Of a stretch of 64,000 bases of DNA, positions 1 through 8,805 are shown in pieces. The translations under genes and the position numbers were made by a program. Below the pieces are notes generated by a model, which saw only the letters and a list, made by a program, of their open reading frames with translations, was not told where the DNA came from and made no database searches. Origin of the DNA: Steroidobacteraceae bacterium (lineage in GTDB: Bacteria > Pseudomonadota > Gammaproteobacteria > Steroidobacterales > Steroidobacteraceae); contig JABAQU010000001.1 of NCBI GenBank assembly GCA_019187185.1, positions 248,001 through 312,000 of the forward strand, given 5' to 3'. The stretch's first letter is position 1. Every line of letters starts with the position of its first letter.

Positions 1-1024
1 CGAGGCGGCAGATTTCTTCGGTGTGCGCCACCGCACGATCCGCGTCGGTGAGGGCGATATCCGGGCGGGCTTCGTCGAGACCGTCTACCGCGCCGAGACG
101 CCGTTCCTGCGCTGCGCGCCGATCCCGTTAATGGCTCTGTCACGTCTCGCGCACGCGAATGATTGCAAGGTCGTGATGACGGGCGAAGGTTCGGATGAGG
201 TCTTCGGCGGCTACGATCTTTTCAAGGAAGCGAAGATCCGCCGCTTCTGGGCGCGGCAGTCGGCGTCGAAGTGGCGCCCACGGCTCCTGCAGCGACTCTA
301 CCCATACCTCGATATCACGTCCGCTCGTGGCCAGGCCTACAGTGAAGCATTTTTCGGGGCGGGTCTCGCCGAGGCCGGCGCGGCGTTTTTTGCCCACGAG
401 CCGCGCTGGCGGACGACCGCGCAGGGCAAGGCATTGTTCTCGGACGAGACGCGGCAGGCGATTCGCGAAGATGCCGTAGGACAGTTCGGGCGTTCACTGC
501 CACGGGAGTTCGCGAGCTGGGACCCGTTCAACCAGTCGCAGTACGTCGAGGCGAAGACGCTGCTCGCGAACTACCTGCTGTCGACACAGGGCGACCGGAT
601 GTTGATGGCGAACAGTGTCGAGGGCCGGTTCCCGTATCTCGATCATCGCGTGATCGAATTCGCGAATGCACTCGATCCGCGCCTGAAGATGCATGTGCTG
701 AACGAGAAATACCTCCTCAAGAAGGCGGTGGGTGCGCGATTGCCACCGGCGATACTCGCCCGCAAGAAGCAGCCGTATCGCAGCCCCGACAGCCGGGCCT
801 TCGAGGCCGTACGCGACGATTTCGTCGCGGAGGCGCTGTCGGAGGCCAGCCTGCGGCGGGCAGGCTATTTCGATGCAGCTCGCACGCAGCTGCTCGTGCG
901 TAAAGTTCGGGCCGGGCGTGCGGTAAGCTATAAGGACAGCATGACGTTCATCGGTGTCCTGTCCACGCAGGTCTGGCACGCCCTATTTGTGGAGGGCGTC
1001 ACTCCCGGGGGCGGCAGGCTATAG
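1..1024 (+). CDS. Asparagine synthase (glutamine-hydrolysing) family protein, C-terminal part
   Basis: The gene enters from the left edge in frame 2, so its start, its N-terminal glutaminase domain and the PP-loop are outside the window. What remains (about 340 residues) is the synthetase domain: GEGSDEVFGGY about 60 residues in, then the helical C-terminal half with EGRFPYLDHRV and a lysine-rich stretch (LNEKYLLKKAV). Family members use glutamine-derived ammonia and ATP to amidate a carboxylate through an acyl-AMP intermediate. The acyl carrier protein 33 bp downstream, followed by an acyl-AMP ligase and a NadE-like enzyme, suggests that this copy works in a specialised surface-polysaccharide or small-molecule pathway rather than in asparagine supply. 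The family is clear; the substrate is unknown. Confidence 0.9.
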   Translation, partial: EAADFFGVRHRTIRVGEGDIRAGFVETVYRAETPFLRCAPIPLMALSRLAHANDCKVVMTGEGSDEVFGGYDLFKEAKIRRFWARQSASKWRPRLLQRLYPYLDITSARGQAYSEAFFGAGLAEAGAAFFAHEPRWRTTAQGKALFSDETRQAIREDAVGQFGRSLPREFASWDPFNQSQYVEAKTLLANYLLSTQGDRMLMANSVEGRFPYLDHRVIEFANALDPRLKMHVLNEKYLLKKAVGARLPPAILARKKQPYRSPDSRAFEAVRDDFVAEALSEASLRRAGYFDAARTQLLVRKVRAGRAVSYKDSMTFIGVLSTQVWHALFVEGVTPGGGRL

Positions 1025-1057
1025 TCAAATGCGATGTTCGTGGCAAGGGAGCAGCCG

Positions 1058-1303
1058 ATGTCGGCAGGCGAGCAGGTCAGACAATACATCCTCGAAAACT
1101 TCCTTTTCAGCACCGATACATCGCTGCTCGGAATGGACGATTCGTTTCTCGGACGCGGACTCATCGATTCGACGGGCATGCTCGAGGTGCTGCTGTTTCT
1201 CGAAGAGACGTTCGGCATCAAGGTGGCGGACAACGAGATGGTCCCCGAGAACCTGGACTCGGTGAACCGGATCGCGGCTTTCGTCGCGCGCAAGAAGGCA
1301 TGA
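1058..1303 (+). CDS. Stand-alone acyl carrier protein
   Basis: This 81-residue acidic protein has the phosphopantetheine attachment motif in GLIDSTGMLEVL, where the serine of DS would carry the 4'-phosphopantetheine arm. The ATG at 1058 is preferred over the one at 1034 because an AAGGGAG ribosome-binding site lies six bases upstream and because the usual ACP length then results. It sits 4 bp ahead of an acyl-AMP ligase, the normal layout for a loader-carrier pair. It is not in a fatty-acid context (no fabD, fabG or fabF), so it probably carries a dedicated acyl or aminoacyl group for the pathway of this locus. Confidence 0.88.
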   Translation: MSAGEQVRQYILENFLFSTDTSLLGMDDSFLGRGLIDSTGMLEVLLFLEETFGIKVADNEMVPENLDSVNRIAAFVARKKA

Positions 1304-1307
1304 ACCC

Positions 1308-2846
1308 ATGATCACCGGCCCGACCGGCCTCGTGGACCTGTTGCGCGAGTCGGCGCGGCGGTTTGCGGACCGGGAGGCGATCCGCCATCGTGGAACTGCG
1401 ACGACGTACGGGGAGCTCTGGCGCAGTGTACTCGCGGTGTCGCGCGCCCTGCGTGTCCATGGGCTCGGGCAGGGCGAGCGCGTTGCGCTGCTGATCGACA
1501 ATTCACCCGAGTATGTGGCGGCTTACTATGCGGTGCTGCACGCGGGCGGAGTGGTCGTCGGCCTCAACACGGCGCTGCGCGGCGCGGAACTCGCGCGCCA
1601 GATCAGGAGCTGCGGAGCTGCGGCGTTGATCGCCGCGCCCGATCATCCGGATCTCGCAAGTGTCGTTGGTGCAGGCAATACGATTCGCATGGTTTCGTGC
1701 ACCGCTTCACAGGCCGATCGGGCAGCACCACCGGGCGCGCATGCGTGGGGTGACTGGGCGAGTGCGACCGATGCGCCCGACGATTCGCCCGCGATCGATG
1801 CATCGCATCCTGCGGCGATCATCTACACCTCGGGTACGACCGGCGATCCCCGTGGGGTCACGCTGAGTCACTGCAACCTCGTCGCCAACACGCAGTCGAT
1901 CCTCGGCTACCTCGGGCTTACGGCGGCGGACCGCATCGTCAATGTGCTGCCGTTCTATTACTCCTACGGCAATTCGGTCCTGCACACGCACTTGGCCGTC
2001 GGCGGTTCGATCGTGCTCGAGAACTCGCTGACGTACCCGCATCTGGTCGTGCAGACGATGGCGCAGGAGAGTGCGACCGGCTTTTCCGGCGTGCCGTCGA
2101 CCTTTGCACTGCTCCTGCAGCGCGTGACACTCGCCGACTACGATCTTGCGTCGCTGCGCTACCTGACGCAGGCTGGAGGTGCGATGGCGCCTGCGCTGAC
2201 CCAGCGGTTGCGCGCGGCGCTGCCGCGCGCGCGCCTCTTCGTGATGTACGGCCAGACGGAGGCGACAGCGCGCATCAGCTACCTGCCACCCGAGCGCCTC
2301 AACGACAAGATGGGCACGGTGGGCATCGGCATTCCGGGCGTCACGATCGAGGTGCGCGACGAAGCCGATGCGCGCGTGCCGGCCGGTACTGCGGGCGAGG
2401 TTTGTGTGCGCGGCGACAATGTGATGCTCGGTTACTGGGAGAATCCGCAGGCCACGGCTCGAGTCCTGCGCGACGGGTGGTTGCACACCGGCGACATCGG
2501 CCGCATGGACGCAGAGGGTTACCTGTCGCTCGTGGGTCGATCATCCGACATGATCAAGACGGGCGCCCATCGCGTGAGCCCGCTCGAGATCGAGGAAGTC
2601 CTGCTCGAACTCGATGGGATCAGCGAATGTGCCGCTCTCGGCATCGCGGACGAAATCCTGGGAGAAGTCATCAAGGTATTCATCGTGCCGTGCGCTGGTG
2701 CCGCGCTCGATGCGCGAGCGGTGCAGGCCCATTGCCGCGCAAGGCTCGCGGCGTACAAGGTGCCAAAAGAAGTGACGTTCGTCGCGGGCCTCCCGCGAAC
2801 CGCGTCCGGCAAGGTCAAACGTTTCATGCTGAAGGAAGCAGGATGA
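1308..2846 (+). CDS. Acyl-AMP ligase (ANL superfamily, class I adenylate-forming)
   Basis: This 512-residue AMP-binding enzyme should activate a carboxylic acid with ATP and pass it to CoA or, given the adjacent ACP, to a phosphopantetheine thiol. The P-loop motif is IIYTSGTTGDPRGVTLSH near residue 170, the adenine motif is VMYGQTEAT near 312, the hinge GWLHTGDIGRMDAEGYL is near 392, and the C-terminal catalytic lysine region is RTASGKVKRF. Length matches stand-alone acyl-CoA synthetases. Its stop overlaps the start of the NadE-like gene as ATGA, which indicates translational coupling. The acid used cannot be read from the sequence. Confidence 0.9.
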   Translation: MITGPTGLVDLLRESARRFADREAIRHRGTATTYGELWRSVLAVSRALRVHGLGQGERVALLIDNSPEYVAAYYAVLHAGGVVVGLNTALRGAELARQIRSCGAAALIAAPDHPDLASVVGAGNTIRMVSCTASQADRAAPPGAHAWGDWASATDAPDDSPAIDASHPAAIIYTSGTTGDPRGVTLSHCNLVANTQSILGYLGLTAADRIVNVLPFYYSYGNSVLHTHLAVGGSIVLENSLTYPHLVVQTMAQESATGFSGVPSTFALLLQRVTLADYDLASLRYLTQAGGAMAPALTQRLRAALPRARLFVMYGQTEATARISYLPPERLNDKMGTVGIGIPGVTIEVRDEADARVPAGTAGEVCVRGDNVMLGYWENPQATARVLRDGWLHTGDIGRMDAEGYLSLVGRSSDMIKTGAHRVSPLEIEEVLLELDGISECAALGIADEILGEVIKVFIVPCAGAALDARAVQAHCRARLAAYKVPKEVTFVAGLPRTASGKVKRFMLKEAG

Positions 2847-3835
2847 TGGCAACGAAGCCGCTCAGCGCGGAGCGCGCGTTCGCGCTCGACTACACGGCCG
2901 AGGCCGACCGCATCGAAGCGCGTCTGCGTGAGGTGCTGACGAAGGACCTCAACCGCCGCGGGCTCGTGGTCGCGATCTCGGGCGGTATCGACAGCTCGGT
3001 GAGCGCAGCGCTCGCGGTGCGTGCCGTGGGCCCGAAGCGGGTCTACGGATTGCTGCTGCCGGAGAGGGTGTCTTCGCCCCAGAGCACGCATCGCGGGCGA
3101 CTGCTCGCGACGCACCTCGGCATCGAGCACGAGGTCTTCGACATCGCGCCGGCGCTCGAGGCGCTCGGCTGCTATGCGCGCATCGACGAGGTGTGCAAGG
3201 CGGTGCATCCGGACTACGGCGCCGGGTGGAAGAACAAGATCGTCCTCGAGGGCGGCCTGCAGGGCCGCTACAACCACTTCAAGCTGGTTGCGCAGGATCC
3301 GGCGGGCGCATTGCACGAGGCGCGGCTCGAGTACCGCCAGTACCTGCAGATCGTCGCGGCGACGAACTTCAAGCAGCGCGTCAGGAAGACGATGGAGTAC
3401 TACCACGCCGACCGGCTGAACTACGCGGTCGTCGGCACGCCGAACCGGCTCGAGTACGACCAGGGCTTCTTCGTGAAGAACGGCGACGGGTCGGCCGACG
3501 TCAAGCCGATTGCGCACCTCTACAAGTCGCAGGTCTACGCGATGGCGCGCTTTATGAAGCTGCCGGACGAGATCTGCAATGCAATCCCGACGACAGATAC
3601 CTACAGCCTTGCGCAGGGGCAGGACGAGTTCTACTTCGGCCTGCCGTACGCGCAGATGGACCTCGCGCTCTGGGCCTACGAGCACGGCGAGAGCACGGCC
3701 ACGCTCGGCGCGGCGCTCGGCATTTCCGCCGATGCGGCGAAAGCGGTCTACGCGGATATCGAGGCGAAGCGGCGTGCGACGAAGTACCTCGGCGGCGCGC
3801 CGATCCTGATGGGATGCTCCGTCAGCGCGGACTAA
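2843..3835 (+). CDS. NadE-like PP-loop ATP-dependent amide ligase
   Basis: This 330-residue protein belongs to the NAD synthase (NadE) family of N-type ATP pyrophosphatases. The PP-loop is AISGGIDSSVSAAL near residue 45, and the later motifs GTPNRLEYDQGFF and NGDGSADVKPIAHLYKSQV match the NadE deamido-NAD/ATP region. It has no glutaminase domain. About 45 extra residues separate the PP-loop from the helix FKQRVRKTMEYY compared with the ~270-residue ammonia-dependent NadE, and the usual motif after GT is altered. Such copies occur in polysaccharide or secondary-metabolite loci, where they may amidate another carboxylate. Start: ATG 2843 overlapping the ligase stop; ATG 2846 is also possible. 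Base composition is host-like. Confidence 0.75.
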   Translation: MMATKPLSAERAFALDYTAEADRIEARLREVLTKDLNRRGLVVAISGGIDSSVSAALAVRAVGPKRVYGLLLPERVSSPQSTHRGRLLATHLGIEHEVFDIAPALEALGCYARIDEVCKAVHPDYGAGWKNKIVLEGGLQGRYNHFKLVAQDPAGALHEARLEYRQYLQIVAATNFKQRVRKTMEYYHADRLNYAVVGTPNRLEYDQGFFVKNGDGSADVKPIAHLYKSQVYAMARFMKLPDEICNAIPTTDTYSLAQGQDEFYFGLPYAQMDLALWAYEHGESTATLGAALGISADAAKAVYADIEAKRRATKYLGGAPILMGCSVSAD

Positions 3836-3895
3836 CATGACTATCGCCTGACGGTGTCCGGAAGGCGTGGTATTGTCGAGCGGACGGGGAGCGTC

Positions 3896-5311
3896 ATGAG
3901 AGTCAGTTTCGTCGGACATGCCTCCATCCTGATTGACGTAGGAGGCGCAACGATCTTGTCAGACCCTTGGTGGCGGGCGCCCTGCTTTGGTGCGCAGTGG
4001 TGGAATTATCCTCCAGCTCATATCGATGCCATCTCGGGCCGCCATATTGACTTCATATATATCTCGCACGGGCATCACGATCACTTCCATTCCGGCACGC
4101 TCAATACTTTGAATCGCGACGCCAGGATCCTGGTGTCGCGCAAGACAGGTCTCGGCGCGGCGGCGAGGGAATTGGGTTTCGAGGTCGTCGAGCTCGACGA
4201 CGACGAGGAGTATTCACTGACCGCGGGCGTCACTTGCCGTGTAATGGAGACACACGCCGGAGACACATTGATGGCGGTGACCGACGGCAAGGAAGTCTGT
4301 ATCAACCTCAACGACGCACTTCATTCTGCACCACAGGACGTCCAGGCCCGTTTCATTGAGCATTTGAGGGCGCTCTATCCGACAATCGATTACGTGTTCT
4401 GTGGTTACGGCGTAGCTTCCCATTTCCCAAACTGCTACCAGATTCCCGGCAAGAGCCGCGTGGCGACGGCAGCGCGGCGCCAGGCATATTTCAATCGGCA
4501 ATGGGTGCGATTGGTCGCCGGGCTGAAGCCACGATATGCATTTCCGTTCGCGGCAGATGTGGTATTCCTCGAAGAGGACCTCTTTTGGGTGAATGAGCCC
4601 ACTCACAATAGTGAGCGCCCAACAGCTGCATTTGGTGCCCTCTGCCCAGAGTCTACTGTCAAGGTTGTCGACATCGCCCCTGGGTTTGTGATCGACGATG
4701 GCGTGATAGTCAATGCAGTGCTTCGTCAGCCGGTACGCGCGGCGGACCTTCGAGCGAATTGCACAGACGAGATCGAGCGCGCAAATCGCTATGGCAGTGT
4801 CAGGGAGTCGGATGTCAATTCAGTGGCCGAATTGCTTCGGGAGAACCTGTCCATCTGCTCGGACTATCTCCTCAGTTACGTGGGTGACTACAGGTTCCTG
4901 ATTGGGCTGCGCAATAGTCAATGGGGCATTTGTGTCGAGAAGAAGGGGAGGTCGGTCGACTTGGCTGTTGTCAGTGGAGAAGCGGTAGATGCCGCAAGCT
5001 ACGACGTGACTTATACGACGCGCTTGCCGTACCTCAGGCGGAGCCTCGTGAGAGAATTTGGCGATGAAGTCCTGTTCGTCGGCTCCGGCGGGATATTCGA
5101 GTACGCGGATCAGGCCAAGGCGCGACGGAATCTCCACCGCGAGCTCATGCCGTTGCTGAGAAAGAATGACCAACCCCCGCGAGCGCGCTACGGTAAGTCC
5201 TCAAGGCAGGTTTTCAGGATCAAGCAGATGGCAAAGCGACTGCTGGGCAGGGTCGAACAGGATCTGTACGATTTGGGAACCTGGACCGTATTCGACCGCG
5301 TACGTCCGTGA
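3896..5311 (+). CDS. Metallo-beta-lactamase-fold protein, CMAH/UlaG-like
   Basis: This 471-residue protein begins with the MBL fold: VSFVGHASILIDVGG, LSDPWW, and the metal motif SHGHHDHFH near residue 57. The 'DPWW...FG..WW.YPP' layout recalls the hydrolase-like domain of CMP-N-acetylneuraminate hydroxylase relatives and UlaG-type proteins, but no Rieske iron-sulfur domain is visible. The C-terminal half (from about residue 300) is unrecognised. ATG 3896 is chosen because GGGGAG lies just upstream. Third-position GC is visibly lower than in the flanking genes (for example the run around 4020-4100), which points to recent acquisition. It follows the NadE-like gene by 60 bp and is probably part of the same pathway. 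Its substrate is unknown. Confidence 0.75.
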   Translation: MRVSFVGHASILIDVGGATILSDPWWRAPCFGAQWWNYPPAHIDAISGRHIDFIYISHGHHDHFHSGTLNTLNRDARILVSRKTGLGAAARELGFEVVELDDDEEYSLTAGVTCRVMETHAGDTLMAVTDGKEVCINLNDALHSAPQDVQARFIEHLRALYPTIDYVFCGYGVASHFPNCYQIPGKSRVATAARRQAYFNRQWVRLVAGLKPRYAFPFAADVVFLEEDLFWVNEPTHNSERPTAAFGALCPESTVKVVDIAPGFVIDDGVIVNAVLRQPVRAADLRANCTDEIERANRYGSVRESDVNSVAELLRENLSICSDYLLSYVGDYRFLIGLRNSQWGICVEKKGRSVDLAVVSGEAVDAASYDVTYTTRLPYLRRSLVREFGDEVLFVGSGGIFEYADQAKARRNLHRELMPLLRKNDQPPRARYGKSSRQVFRIKQMAKRLLGRVEQDLYDLGTWTVFDRVRP

Positions 5312-5403: not shown

Positions 5404-6723
5404 TCACCGCTGCTTGAAATCCTCCGGCGTCAACTGATGCCGCCCGAGGAGCTTGTAGAAATCGGTGCGGTTCCTCTTGGCGAGCCGCGCCGCCTGCGAC
5501 ACGTTGCCACCCGTGATCTGCAGGATCTGCGACAGATAACTGCGCGTGAATTCATCGCGCGCCTCGTCGAACGACACCATGCGCCCCGGTGAGCCACCGA
5601 GCGACTGCTGCACGAGTTCGACCGGCATGATGGGGGTCTGCGACAGCGCGACGTTCTGCCGCACCACGTTCGCGAGCTGGCGCACGTTGCCGGGCCACTC
5701 GGCGGTGGCGAGCAGTTCGACCGCCTCGGGGGCATAGATCCGGCGCATGCCGGTCTCGGCCGAGAGCCGCGCGAGAAAATGCGCGACGAGGAGGGGAATG
5801 TCTTCGCGGCGGCGCGCGAGCGGCGGCACCTCGATGTGCACGACGTTCAGTCGGTAGTAGAGGTCTTCGCGGAAGGTGCCTGCCGCGACGAGTGCCTGTG
5901 GATCCTTCGCGGTGCTCGCGATCACGCGCACGTTCGCGGTGGCGCCGGCCGTGTCCTGCGTCGGGCTGTCGGGCAGGAAGCGCAGCAGCTTCGCCTGCAG
6001 CGCGAGCGGCAGGTCGGCGATTTCGTCGAGCAGCAGCGTGCCGCCCTCGGCGGCGGCCATTGCGCCGCCCTCGCCGAAGAGCGCCGTGTCGAGCGCCGCC
6101 TCGTCGCTGCCGCTGCAGCTGACGACGATGAAGGCCTTGTTCCGCCTCGGACTCGCCGCGTGGATTGCCTGCGCGAGCAGTTCCTTGCCCGTGCCGCTTT
6201 CGCCCGTGATCAGCACGCGCGCATCGGTGCCCGCCACCATGTGCGCCTGCGCGAGCTTTTCCTCCATCAGCGAGCTGCGCGTGACGATGCCCGCGCGCCA
6301 GTCCTCGTCCGACCCGGCGAACCCCGAGATCCGCAGCGCCTTCTGCACGTGATCGAGCAGCTCCTGCTTGTCGACGGGCTTGGTGAGAAACCCGAATGCG
6401 CCCATCTGCGTCGCCTGCACCGCGTCGGGGATCGTGCCGTGGGCAGTGAGCAGGATCACCTTGAGCCCGGGCCAGCGGCTCTGCAGTTCCTTCAGGAGGC
6501 CAATGCCGTCCATCTGGTCCATGCGCAGGTCGGTGATCACGAGGTCCGGCCGGAAGCGGCTCGCGGCCGCGACCGCGGCGACCCCGTTTTCGACGGCCTC
6601 GACCTCGTAGTTCTCGGCGCGCAGCCGAATGGTCAGCAGGCGCAGCAGCCCCGGATCGTCGTCGACGACGAGGATCCTGGCCTTGCGCTTGCCGGATGTG
6701 TCGTTGCGGGCGGCCTGGTTCAT
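5404..6723 (-). CDS. glrR: GlrR/QseF-like AAA+ response regulator lacking GAFTGA
   Basis: This 439-residue NtrC-family regulator has a receiver domain with phospho-acceptor D65 (VITDLRM), an AAA+ domain with Walker A GESGTGKE and Walker B LLLDEIADL, an arginine-finger region (FREDLYYRLN), and a Fis-type helix-turn-helix (GNVSQAARLAKRNRTDFYKLL). Third gene of a glrK-qseG-glrR set, it should be phosphorylated by the kinase encoded upstream. The stretch between ALFGEG and AAEGGTLLLDE is only a few residues long, so L1 and its GAFTGA motif, which contacts sigma54, are absent. E. coli GlrR has it. This protein therefore probably does not activate sigma54 promoters in the usual way. ATG 6723 overlaps the preceding stop. 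Confidence 0.88.
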   Translation of the reverse strand: MNQAARNDTSGKRKARILVVDDDPGLLRLLTIRLRAENYEVEAVENGVAAVAAASRFRPDLVITDLRMDQMDGIGLLKELQSRWPGLKVILLTAHGTIPDAVQATQMGAFGFLTKPVDKQELLDHVQKALRISGFAGSDEDWRAGIVTRSSLMEEKLAQAHMVAGTDARVLITGESGTGKELLAQAIHAASPRRNKAFIVVSCSGSDEAALDTALFGEGGAMAAAEGGTLLLDEIADLPLALQAKLLRFLPDSPTQDTAGATANVRVIASTAKDPQALVAAGTFREDLYYRLNVVHIEVPPLARRREDIPLLVAHFLARLSAETGMRRIYAPEAVELLATAEWPGNVRQLANVVRQNVALSQTPIMPVELVQQSLGGSPGRMVSFDEARDEFTRSYLSQILQITGGNVSQAARLAKRNRTDFYKLLGRHQLTPEDFKQR

Positions 6724-7349
6724 GGCGTGCGTCCTTCGGGCTGGGGCTTGCGTTCGGTGATCGTGCGCTCGATGTTGGCGATCGCATCGAGCTTTTTCTG
6801 GGCGTCCTCGAGCGCGCGCCGGAGGCGCGCGTTCTCGTCGAGCTCGGCCTGCAGGCGCCGGCTCGCCGTCGTGTTGCGGTCGCGCTCGGCCCGATCGACC
6901 GCGGCCTGCAGGCGGCGATTCTCGGCGGCGAGCAGCGACTGGCGCTCGAGCTGCGACAGCTCGAGACGCGCGAGGGCGCGCTCGGCCGGCACCAGCGATT
7001 CGGGGGTGGCGGTGAGTTCGCGCAGCAGCCGCTCGGCCTCGGTGGTGTCGGTCGAGGCATGCCCGGGCGTGGCGAGGATGAGGGCATAGCGCAGCTGGCG
7101 GCTGGGTGTCGCGGCCTCCTCGAACTCGCGCTTCGCCGTCGCGACGATTTCCGCCTGTTCGGCGGGCCGGCTCGACAGCAGGCGCTGCAGCACCTCGAGG
7201 TGGCCGGAGACGAGCAGCGCCTGCGCCTGCGCGCGATCGACGACCGGCGGGGGCGGGGCGGAGCGGCCTGAGAGGCCGCCGAGCGAGCCGCAACCGCCGA
7301 GCGCGAGCGCGGTGGCGGCCAGGCAGGCACGGGACGCGTTACGCGGCAT
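6720..7349 (-). CDS. qseG: QseG/YfhG-like outer-membrane lipoprotein
   Basis: The 209-residue product starts with a lipoprotein signal (LALGGCGSLGG), with the lipobox cysteine near residue 20. It continues as an all-helical protein ending in a long coiled coil rich in Arg, Glu and Ala (LERQSLLAAENRRLQAAVDRA and beyond). Its position between a sensor kinase and an NtrC-type regulator is that of E. coli qseG/yfhG between glrK and glrR, where the lipoprotein activates the kinase. It overlaps the upstream kinase gene by 11 bp and the downstream regulator by 3 bp. Sequence conservation in this family is low, so the name rests on gene order, lipobox and coiled coil. Confidence 0.75.
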   Translation of the reverse strand: MPRNASRACLAATALALGGCGSLGGLSGRSAPPPPVVDRAQAQALLVSGHLEVLQRLLSSRPAEQAEIVATAKREFEEAATPSRQLRYALILATPGHASTDTTEAERLLRELTATPESLVPAERALARLELSQLERQSLLAAENRRLQAAVDRAERDRNTTASRRLQAELDENARLRRALEDAQKKLDAIANIERTITERKPQPEGRTP

Positions 7350-8805
7350 GGGCCTGCTCCGTCGCCTCGGTCTGCACAGCGCGCTGCGGCAGGCGCACGC
7401 AGAAATGCGCGCCCGGGTACTCGCCGTCGACGATCTCGATCATGCCGCCATGCGCGTTCACGAACTCGAGCACGACGGAGAGCCCGATGCCGGTGCCCTT
7501 GACGTGGCCGCCGGGCACACGCTGGCCAGTGTAGAACGCATCGAAGATGCGCGCGCGCTCCTCGAGCGGGATGCCGACGCCGCTGTCGGCGACGTCGAGC
7601 TGCCAGTTCTCGTCGTGGGCGCGCGCGTGCAGGTGGATGGCGCCGCCCTTCGGCGAGTACTTGATCGCATTCGACAACAGGTTCTCGAGGATCAGCCGCA
7701 GCTTGCTGCGATCGGCGACGAGCGTGAGGTCGTCGATGTGCACGTCGAGCCGCACCCGTTGGGACAGCAACGTGAGCTGCTGGTTCTCGAGCACCTGCTT
7801 GACGAGTGGCCGCAGGCGAAACTCGCTGACGTCGAGCGTCGCGCTCTGGCTCTGCCAGGCGCTGAAGGACAAGAGGTTCTCGATGAGCCGCTGCAGCTTG
7901 ATGCCGTTCTCCCGCAGGATCGCCGTGACCTCGCGCTGGGCGCTGTCGAGCTCGCCGACCGCGCCGTCCATCAGCAGTTCCGTGCCCTCGCGGATGTTCG
8001 CGAGCGGGGTCTTGAGCTCGTGCGACATGTGACGGAGGAAGCGGTTGCGCTCCTGCGCGAGTTCGAGCAGGCGCATGCGCAGCCATTCGAGCTGGTGGCC
8101 GAGGCGCTCGAGGTCGCGCGGGCCCGCAACTGCGATCGGGTGCGTGAAGGTGCCGCGGCCGAGTTCGCTGATCGCGCGGTCGATCTGTCGCAGCGGTCGG
8201 GCGATCGACAGCGTGAGGGCGAGGATCGCGATGAGCGACAGTGGGACGAGCAGGGAACTCTGCACGAGGAGGCGGCGCTGGGCGCGCCGGGTCTGCTCGC
8301 GCAGTTCGGTGAGCTCGGCATCGATCTGGGCATTGCCGGTGGCGGCGATGCGCGCGGCGGAGTCCTGCATCAGGTCGAGGAGGCCGAGCAGCGAGGCGAA
8401 GGTCGCGTCGGTGGGCGAGGGTTGCGCGAGCCCGTCACGCAGCTCGCGCTGGGCCGCGGCGAGATCGGCGAGTGCCTTCGTCGCCTCGGGGCTGCGCAGG
8501 TGCCGATCGAGCTCGGTCCGCGTCGCCGTGAGCCGCGACTCGCTGCGGGTGATCGATTCGGTCAGCTTCGGGTCCCGCAGCACCTGGTAGACGCGGGTGC
8601 CGCGTTCGACCGCCGCGATCTCGGCGAAGAGTTCCTGCGTCGCGCGTGTCGCCCGCACGCTCTCGACGACCAGTTTCTCGCTGGTGGCGGCGATCTGGCG
8701 CATCTGCACGGCCGCATTCAGCACGGCCACGAGCAGCGGGATCGCGATGAGCGCGAGCCCGAGCAGCATGAGGCTGGAAAGGGACTTGGGACGAGCCCAA
8801 CGCAT
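7339..8805 (-). CDS. glrK: GlrK/QseE-like sensor histidine kinase
   Basis: This 488-residue membrane kinase has a first membrane segment at about residues 10-30, a helical periplasmic sensor of about 150 residues, a second membrane segment (SSLLVPLSLIAILALTLSI, about 190-210), a HAMP linker, a dimerisation domain with phospho-acceptor H262 in MSHELKTPLANIREG, and an ATP-binding domain (ENLLSNAIKYSP, DSGVGIPLEE, GTGIGLSVV). It is the partner of the GlrR-like regulator downstream. In Enterobacteria this pair governs glmY and the rpoE envelope response. It lies 43 bp after galE on the same strand, so it may be cotranscribed with it; no clear separate promoter was found. Confidence 0.88.
   Translation of the reverse strand: MRWARPKSLSSLMLLGLALIAIPLLVAVLNAAVQMRQIAATSEKLVVESVRATRATQELFAEIAAVERGTRVYQVLRDPKLTESITRSESRLTATRTELDRHLRSPEATKALADLAAAQRELRDGLAQPSPTDATFASLLGLLDLMQDSAARIAATGNAQIDAELTELREQTRRAQRRLLVQSSLLVPLSLIAILALTLSIARPLRQIDRAISELGRGTFTHPIAVAGPRDLERLGHQLEWLRMRLLELAQERNRFLRHMSHELKTPLANIREGTELLMDGAVGELDSAQREVTAILRENGIKLQRLIENLLSFSAWQSQSATLDVSEFRLRPLVKQVLENQQLTLLSQRVRLDVHIDDLTLVADRSKLRLILENLLSNAIKYSPKGGAIHLHARAHDENWQLDVADSGVGIPLEERARIFDAFYTGQRVPGGHVKGTGIGLSVVLEFVNAHGGMIEIVDGEYPGAHFCVRLPQRAVQTEATEQAHAA

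Follow-up and report, generated by a model that had tools for sequence, protein, structure and literature searches.

The window analysed here, a stretch of 64,000 nucleotides, corresponds to positions 248001–312000 of contig 2 (C2) in a 3.55-Mb genome of a Steroidobacteraceae bacterium assembled into 45 contigs. Its left end is occupied by a single tight plus-strand run of four genes, which encode an AsnB-type amidotransferase, an acyl carrier protein (ACP), an acyl-AMP ligase and a NadE-like amidating ligase (Table 1). The stop of the ACP gene lies 4 bp from the start of the ligase gene, and the ligase stop and the NadE-like start overlap by 4 bp. Gene families were assigned with Pfam and NCBIfam profile searches. 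The matches bear out the families of these four genes and of the MBL-fold gene that follows them, and all five lie where an earlier note, made from the sequence, had placed them. The same note held that most of the locus lies to the left of the window. For the cassette itself only 917 bases (C2:247084–248000) are missing, and the sequence further to the left is a large glycan locus. Reading this upstream sequence, as the note had proposed, completes the AsnB frame and brings the glycan genes into view.

Table 1. Features of the cassette and its surroundings. Positions refer to the window, or to contig 2 where prefixed with C2.
Feature	Position	Strand or orientation	Remarks
AsnB-type amidotransferase, C-terminal part, 340 whole codons	1..1024 (ORF end 2–1024)	+	Asn_synthase domain; GEGSDEVFGGY motif
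Acyl carrier protein (ACP), 81 aa	1058..1303	+	phosphopantetheine Ser codon 1169–1171 in GLIDSTG
Acyl-AMP ligase, 512 aa	1308..2846	+	AMP-binding and C-terminal domains; A4-region motif LPFYYSYG
NadE-like amidating ligase, 330 aa	2843..3835	+	PRK00876/NF002048; PP-loop SGGIDS; GTPNRLEYDQGFFVKNGDGSAD
MBL-fold protein, cassette neighbour and non-member	3854..5311	+	GTG start 3854 or ATG 3896; HGHHDH metal motif
GlrRK-like two-component system	5404..8805		right of the cassette
GDSL-like protein, no Pfam family	C2:245393–246205	divergent from cassette	GDSL reading from a relative
Hexapeptide acetyltransferase	C2:246260–246808	divergent from cassette	
AsnB-type genes, glycan locus	C2:192894–194825; 198478–200367; 205149–206960; 227314–229035; 235320–237041; 247084–249024		

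The full AsnB protein, which starts at C2:247084, has 646 amino acids and both parts of an amidotransferase. The N-terminal Cys glutaminase (MCG, GATase_7) and the SGGLDS motif (at 268) are intact and lie outside the window, and the ATP-PPi synthetase domain matches Asn_synthase with 205 bits (Pfam). The SGGxDS and GEG[AS]DE motifs are present in all cassette AsnBs compared. Against TIGR03108, the XrtA/PEP-CTERM amidotransferase model with a cut-off of 816.9, the cassette AsnB reaches 407 bits, whereas the paralogue at C2:198478 reaches 1039 bits. In the tree, the cassette AsnBs form one clade (100/100 branch), apart from the XrtA-type TIGR03108 amidotransferases, with WbpS outside the sampling. 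Altogether, at least five and probably six AsnB-type genes are located within one 56-kb stretch of the glycan locus. Two copies of 573 amino acids (C2:227314 and C2:235320) resemble diverged paralogues; the second, the only one of this pair searched against Pfam, gives a weak Asn_synthase match.

The ACP has no Pfam match, and the several NCBIfam carrier-protein models that match it all stay under their cut-offs; it has the DSx phosphopantetheine site of a carrier protein and a size of roughly 80 amino acids. Translation from another in-frame start, at 1034, would yield 89 amino acids, and the 81-residue version is favoured because the proteins of four genus relatives have equal length. The ligase scores 387 bits against TIGR03098, the exosortase-associated ligase model (cut-off 592), compared with 760 bits for a neighbouring ligase at C2:243730. 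Alpha-amino-acid adenylating enzymes, such as the NRPS A domains and DltA, use an Asp in the A4 region to bind the amino group. The corresponding column holds Ser in the ligase of the window and Asp in the neighbouring TIGR03098 ligase (LPFSFDYG). The acid activated by the ligase of the window is thus, as judged from this motif, probably not an alpha-amino acid.

The NadE-like protein matches the 'NAD(+) synthase' model NF002048/PRK00876 with 468 bits (cut-off 313). Its family retains the PP-loop, with SGGxDS in 101 of 101 sequences, and a core, GTPNRxEYDQGFFVKxGDG, which matches the GTxNxxE of NadE. In the AlphaFold2 model (pLDDT 85), the best 50 Foldseek matches are all NAD/NMN synthetases, and the best PDB match is 2e18, with a TM-score of 0.82 by target length. 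A family-specific insert, at about residues 108–165, is predicted by the model to form three beta strands. The identity between the NadE-like proteins and the NadE of their own genomes is 19–24%. Of the cassette proteins, the NadE-like enzyme shows the strongest conservation, with a mean identity of 64% against 42% for the ligase. Such a difference suggests a constant substrate for the NadE-like enzyme and a varying one for the ligase, and hence the two enzymes may act on different molecules.

The fifth gene had been counted into the unit by the earlier note, and this assignment does not hold. It is absent from all relatives' cassettes compared and was not found in the other sampled genomes of the genus. 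The relatives are only distant, about 28–43% over part of the protein, and occur in 3 of 296 genomes of the order and 4 of 369 of the class, counting the protein itself. This absence, together with the rarity and distance of the relatives, rules out the gene as a fifth cassette member. The protein belongs to Pfam Lactamase_B_3 and has a C-terminal extension, and the local GC over window positions 3854–5311 falls to 0.60. Its MBL region with HxHxDH aligns to a Rieske-MBL protein (29% over 231 residues). The protein is thus a distant relative of Rieske-MBL (CMAH-type) hydroxylases, which with CmlA are its closest known counterparts, but it has no Rieske domain. A role as a CmlA-like hydroxylase of an ACP-bound acid was considered and rejected, since diiron monooxygenases are matched only weakly in the PDB (6e-6 over 100 residues), the Rieske-MBL (CMAH-type) relative is nearer, and the gene is missing from the other cassettes.

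The NadE-like gene was found in 30 of the 296 genomes searched in the order, sporadically and over 11 genera. At least 553 relatives emerged when 84,980 species genomes were scanned, and the best 80 of them belong to Gamma-, Beta- and Deltaproteobacteria and Myxococcota. The four-gene set itself is represented in these groups. Among 100 non-redundant NadE-like loci, an ACP is a neighbour in 90, a ligase in 90 and an AsnB in 78, despite many contig ends. When the loci are limited to those with enough flank, defined as at least 6 kb before and at least 3 kb after the NadE-like gene, all four genes are present in 60 of 66, compared with no cassette partners at 12 canonical nadE loci taken from these genomes. 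The four-gene set is therefore not a product of chance, and the co-occurrence that the earlier note had proposed checking is found for the AsnB, ACP, ligase and NadE-like genes, which travel together. The order AsnB-ACP-ligase-NadE is kept in 51 of 71 complete sets, and ligase and ACP are swapped in a further 14. The recurrent neighbours, partly assigned by eye, include glycosyltransferases, polysaccharide deacetylases, and chain-length-type and acyltransferase-like proteins. KAS-III-like proteins lie near the cassette in nine loci (e.g., L111:2824–3792) and a second small ACP in eight, which suggests that the acyl group is lengthened in a few cases.

The cassette closes a roughly 75-kb exosortase/PEP-CTERM exopolysaccharide locus (C2 174–248 kb). 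The exosortase scores 187 bits against XrtA, just missing the 'exception' cut-off of 208, and 142 bits against the general EpsH model, above the cut-off. It is accompanied by PrsT, a TIGR03006 deacetylase, a TIGR03019 FemAB protein and a TIGR03013 sugar transferase, the set that defines an exosortase-A locus. Other genes of the locus encode TIGR03088 and TIGR04063 glycosyltransferases, a flippase and enzymes for sugar nucleotides, a UDP-sugar dehydrogenase among them; the TIGR03108 amidotransferase is also encoded here, as is an ACP accompanied by hydrolases 1 and 2. Glycosyltransferases and an exosortase, suggested earlier as genes to look for, are thus both present in this locus. The segment C2:204–217 kb, where glycan genes are found together with those of an AsnB, an ACP and hydrolases 1 and 2, has a GC of 0.55–0.58 against 0.62–0.69 around it and is perhaps a later acquisition. 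The genes immediately to the left, which diverge from the cassette, encode a hexapeptide acetyltransferase, a GDSL-like protein, a TIGR03098 ligase and a TIGR03099 decarboxylase. The GDSL-like gene stands beside the cassette in 13 of 100 loci and the hexapeptide acetyltransferase gene in six loci of the order, counting that of the window; by this recurrence both may act on the same product. The GlrRK-like two-component system on the right is found beside the cassette in four relatives from the genus as well. It has a small gene between regulator and kinase and is conserved in the genus, whereas the glycan genes on the opposite side are variable.

The connection with the exosortase extends beyond this genome. 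An exosortase is present in 27 of the 30 order genomes with the NadE-like gene and in 83 of the 266 without it (odds ratio 19.8, Fisher p 3.6e-10, values inflated by the relatedness of the genomes). In eight genomes the two genes share a contig, at distances of 10 to 71 kb. Given this relatedness and the three bearers without an exosortase, the association is best read as a link to a type of glycan locus rather than as an absolute dependence.

The cassettes fall into two subtypes according to the ligase. The A4 Asp is present in 15 of the 90 ligases scored, and the window belongs to the non-Asp subtype. A PrmC-like methyltransferase gene accompanies the first subtype: all 11 loci that have this gene and a scored ligase are Asp-type, and it occurs in none of the 75 non-Asp loci (p 3e-11, a value that overstates independence, as the loci share ancestry). 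At the four remaining Asp-type loci, one of them beside a contig end, the gene is not in view. The methyltransferase keeps the NPPY motif. This motif is that of PrmC, which methylates the glutamine side-chain amide, and is a signature of amide-N methylation. The usual presence of such a gene in the amino-acid ligase subtype fits an amide made by AsnB or by the NadE-like enzyme, and its confinement to one subtype is an independent pointer to amide chemistry. Because it goes with one ligase type only, it also connects the amide with the loaded acid. A GNAT-like gene follows the NadE-like gene directly in about 22 loci over both subtypes, frequently in the non-Asp one, and is absent from this position in the genome of the window.

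Two amidating PP-loop enzymes and a ligase-ACP pair thus belong together as a conserved unit, much as had been supposed, and this unit lies in a surface-polysaccharide locus that also encodes glycosyltransferases and an exosortase. The reading preferred here, at a probability of roughly 0.45, is that of a tailoring module which loads a carboxylic acid, amidates carboxylates and supplies the resulting group to a surface glycan. In this scheme, drawn from the enzyme families, the ligase would adenylate a carboxylic acid, probably not an alpha-amino acid, and load it onto the ACP through its phosphopantetheine arm. AsnB, with glutamine as the nitrogen donor, and the NadE-like enzyme, with ammonia, would convert carboxylates into carboxamides via acyl adenylates; the ammonia would possibly come from the glutaminase domain of AsnB. 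At least one amidation would modify the loaded acid or a precursor of it, giving one or two carboxamides. Finally, an acyltransferase would transfer the amidated acyl residue onto an amino sugar in the surface polymer. The XrtA FemAB-type protein of the locus is one candidate for this step, and the GNAT-like protein found in many relatives is another. It does not follow from the scheme that the substrate of either amidating enzyme is carried by the ACP. A more specific version, which is rather unlikely, is that a NadE-derived family was recruited to amidate an ACP- or sugar-bound carboxylate, and so would build a new carboxamide residue of exosortase-associated exopolysaccharides, possibly the PEP-CTERM attachment residue.

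The most serious alternative, unlikely though it is, divides the function. AsnB and/or the NadE-like enzyme would act on a uronic acid of the glycan, as a nucleotide sugar or a lipid-linked form, and turn it into a uronamide, while the ligase and ACP would separately load an unamidated acyl group for the N-acylation of the same sugar. In its favour, NadE naturally acts on a carboxylate linked to a nucleotide, its core motifs persist in the NadE-like family, and this family is far better conserved than the ligase; a UDP-sugar dehydrogenase is encoded within the locus, and uronamides are made by the AsnB-type WbpS/WbqG (PMC7468200). However, the cassette AsnBs form their own clade apart from the XrtA amidotransferases, in a tree that does not include WbpS, and the restriction of the PrmC-like methyltransferase to one ligase type ties the amide to the loaded acid.

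The tailoring of a surface glycan is also preferred to the production of a diffusible small molecule, with the glycan genes as incidental neighbours. This explanation is improbable. AMP ligases, ACPs, GNATs and KAS-III-like proteins (the latter in nine loci) are frequent in natural-product clusters, and the Asp-type ligases are similar to amino-acid adenylation domains, as seen for the TIGR03098 relative. Yet PKS/NRPS modules and exporters do not recur as neighbours in the loci compared, where glycan-type genes do, and the exosortase association is strong. Slightly less probable still is that the cassette makes the linking residue which joins PEP-CTERM proteins via the exosortase, by analogy to type IX secretion with its aminoacyl-uronamide linker. 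Such a linker is proposed for exosortase systems in PMC7468200, and it would agree with the exosortase co-occurrence and with the presence, within the locus, of a deacetylase and a FemAB protein (VimA-like family). Against it, 83 of the 110 exosortase genomes of the order have no cassette, 3 of the 30 cassette genomes have no exosortase, and the ligase of the window is not of the amino-acid type. The last explanation, a spare NAD synthetase with unrelated neighbours, has the database label and the shared fold on its side and is very improbable in view of the fixed association with AsnB, ACP and ligase, the family-specific insert, the sporadic occurrence in the order (30/296) and the separate canonical NadE in 26 of the 30 cassette genomes, that of the window included (C12:78127). 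The four others may be incomplete drafts. This paralogy and the gene context rule out the NadE-like enzyme as the housekeeping NAD synthetase, and its 'NAD synthase' label is probably wrong.

Several known systems share parts of the cassette. The closest is the XrtA/exosortase-A accessory set (TIGR03108, TIGR03098, the TIGR03099 decarboxylase, ACP, and hydrolases 1 and 2), which also combines an AsnB-type enzyme, an ACP and an acyl-AMP ligase and lies within the same single locus. The cassette differs in having the NadE-like enzyme and neither decarboxylase nor hydrolases, in an AsnB of a separate clade (407 of 817 bits) and in a ligase without the amino-acid-type Asp. NadE itself shares the fold, PP-loop and GTxNxxE core with the NadE-like member, which is set apart by its low identity (19–24%), its beta-strand insert, its fixed neighbours and its presence as an extra copy beside the housekeeping enzyme. 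In oxytetracycline biosynthesis, OxyD is an enzyme of the AsnB type. OxyD supplies the malonamate starter (PMC7749508), so that in OxyD/OxyP an amidotransferase provides a carboxamide-bearing acyl unit, as is proposed for the cassette, but in a polyketide synthase context and with no NadE-like partner. In the Wbp/Vim pathway of Porphyromonas gingivalis, as given in the excerpt of PMC7468200, an AsnB-type enzyme amidates an aminoacylated surface sugar: WbpS forms the uronamide, and an amino acid is added by VimA to the same type IX linking sugar. That excerpt names no ACP, ligase or NadE-like enzyme in the pathway, and the target of WbpS is the sugar's uronic acid. A published description of the four-gene cassette was not found in the open-licence literature searched, in line with the earlier note, which knew no named pathway with exactly this set. 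The parts belong to known families; as far as this literature shows, their combination appears to be new.

Biofilm mutants of Rubrivivax carry hits in AsnB-type genes of exosortase loci (PMC3684757), and such genes are reported as necessary for floc formation in work cited in PMC7662799. If the NadE-like family is read as proposed, hundreds of genes would carry a misleading NAD(+) synthase annotation, which is relevant to metabolic models. The compact four-gene cassette with its two ligase subtypes offers a testable enzyme set, and it bears on the chemistry of the exosortase-associated exopolysaccharides and on the moiety for the attachment of PEP-CTERM proteins.
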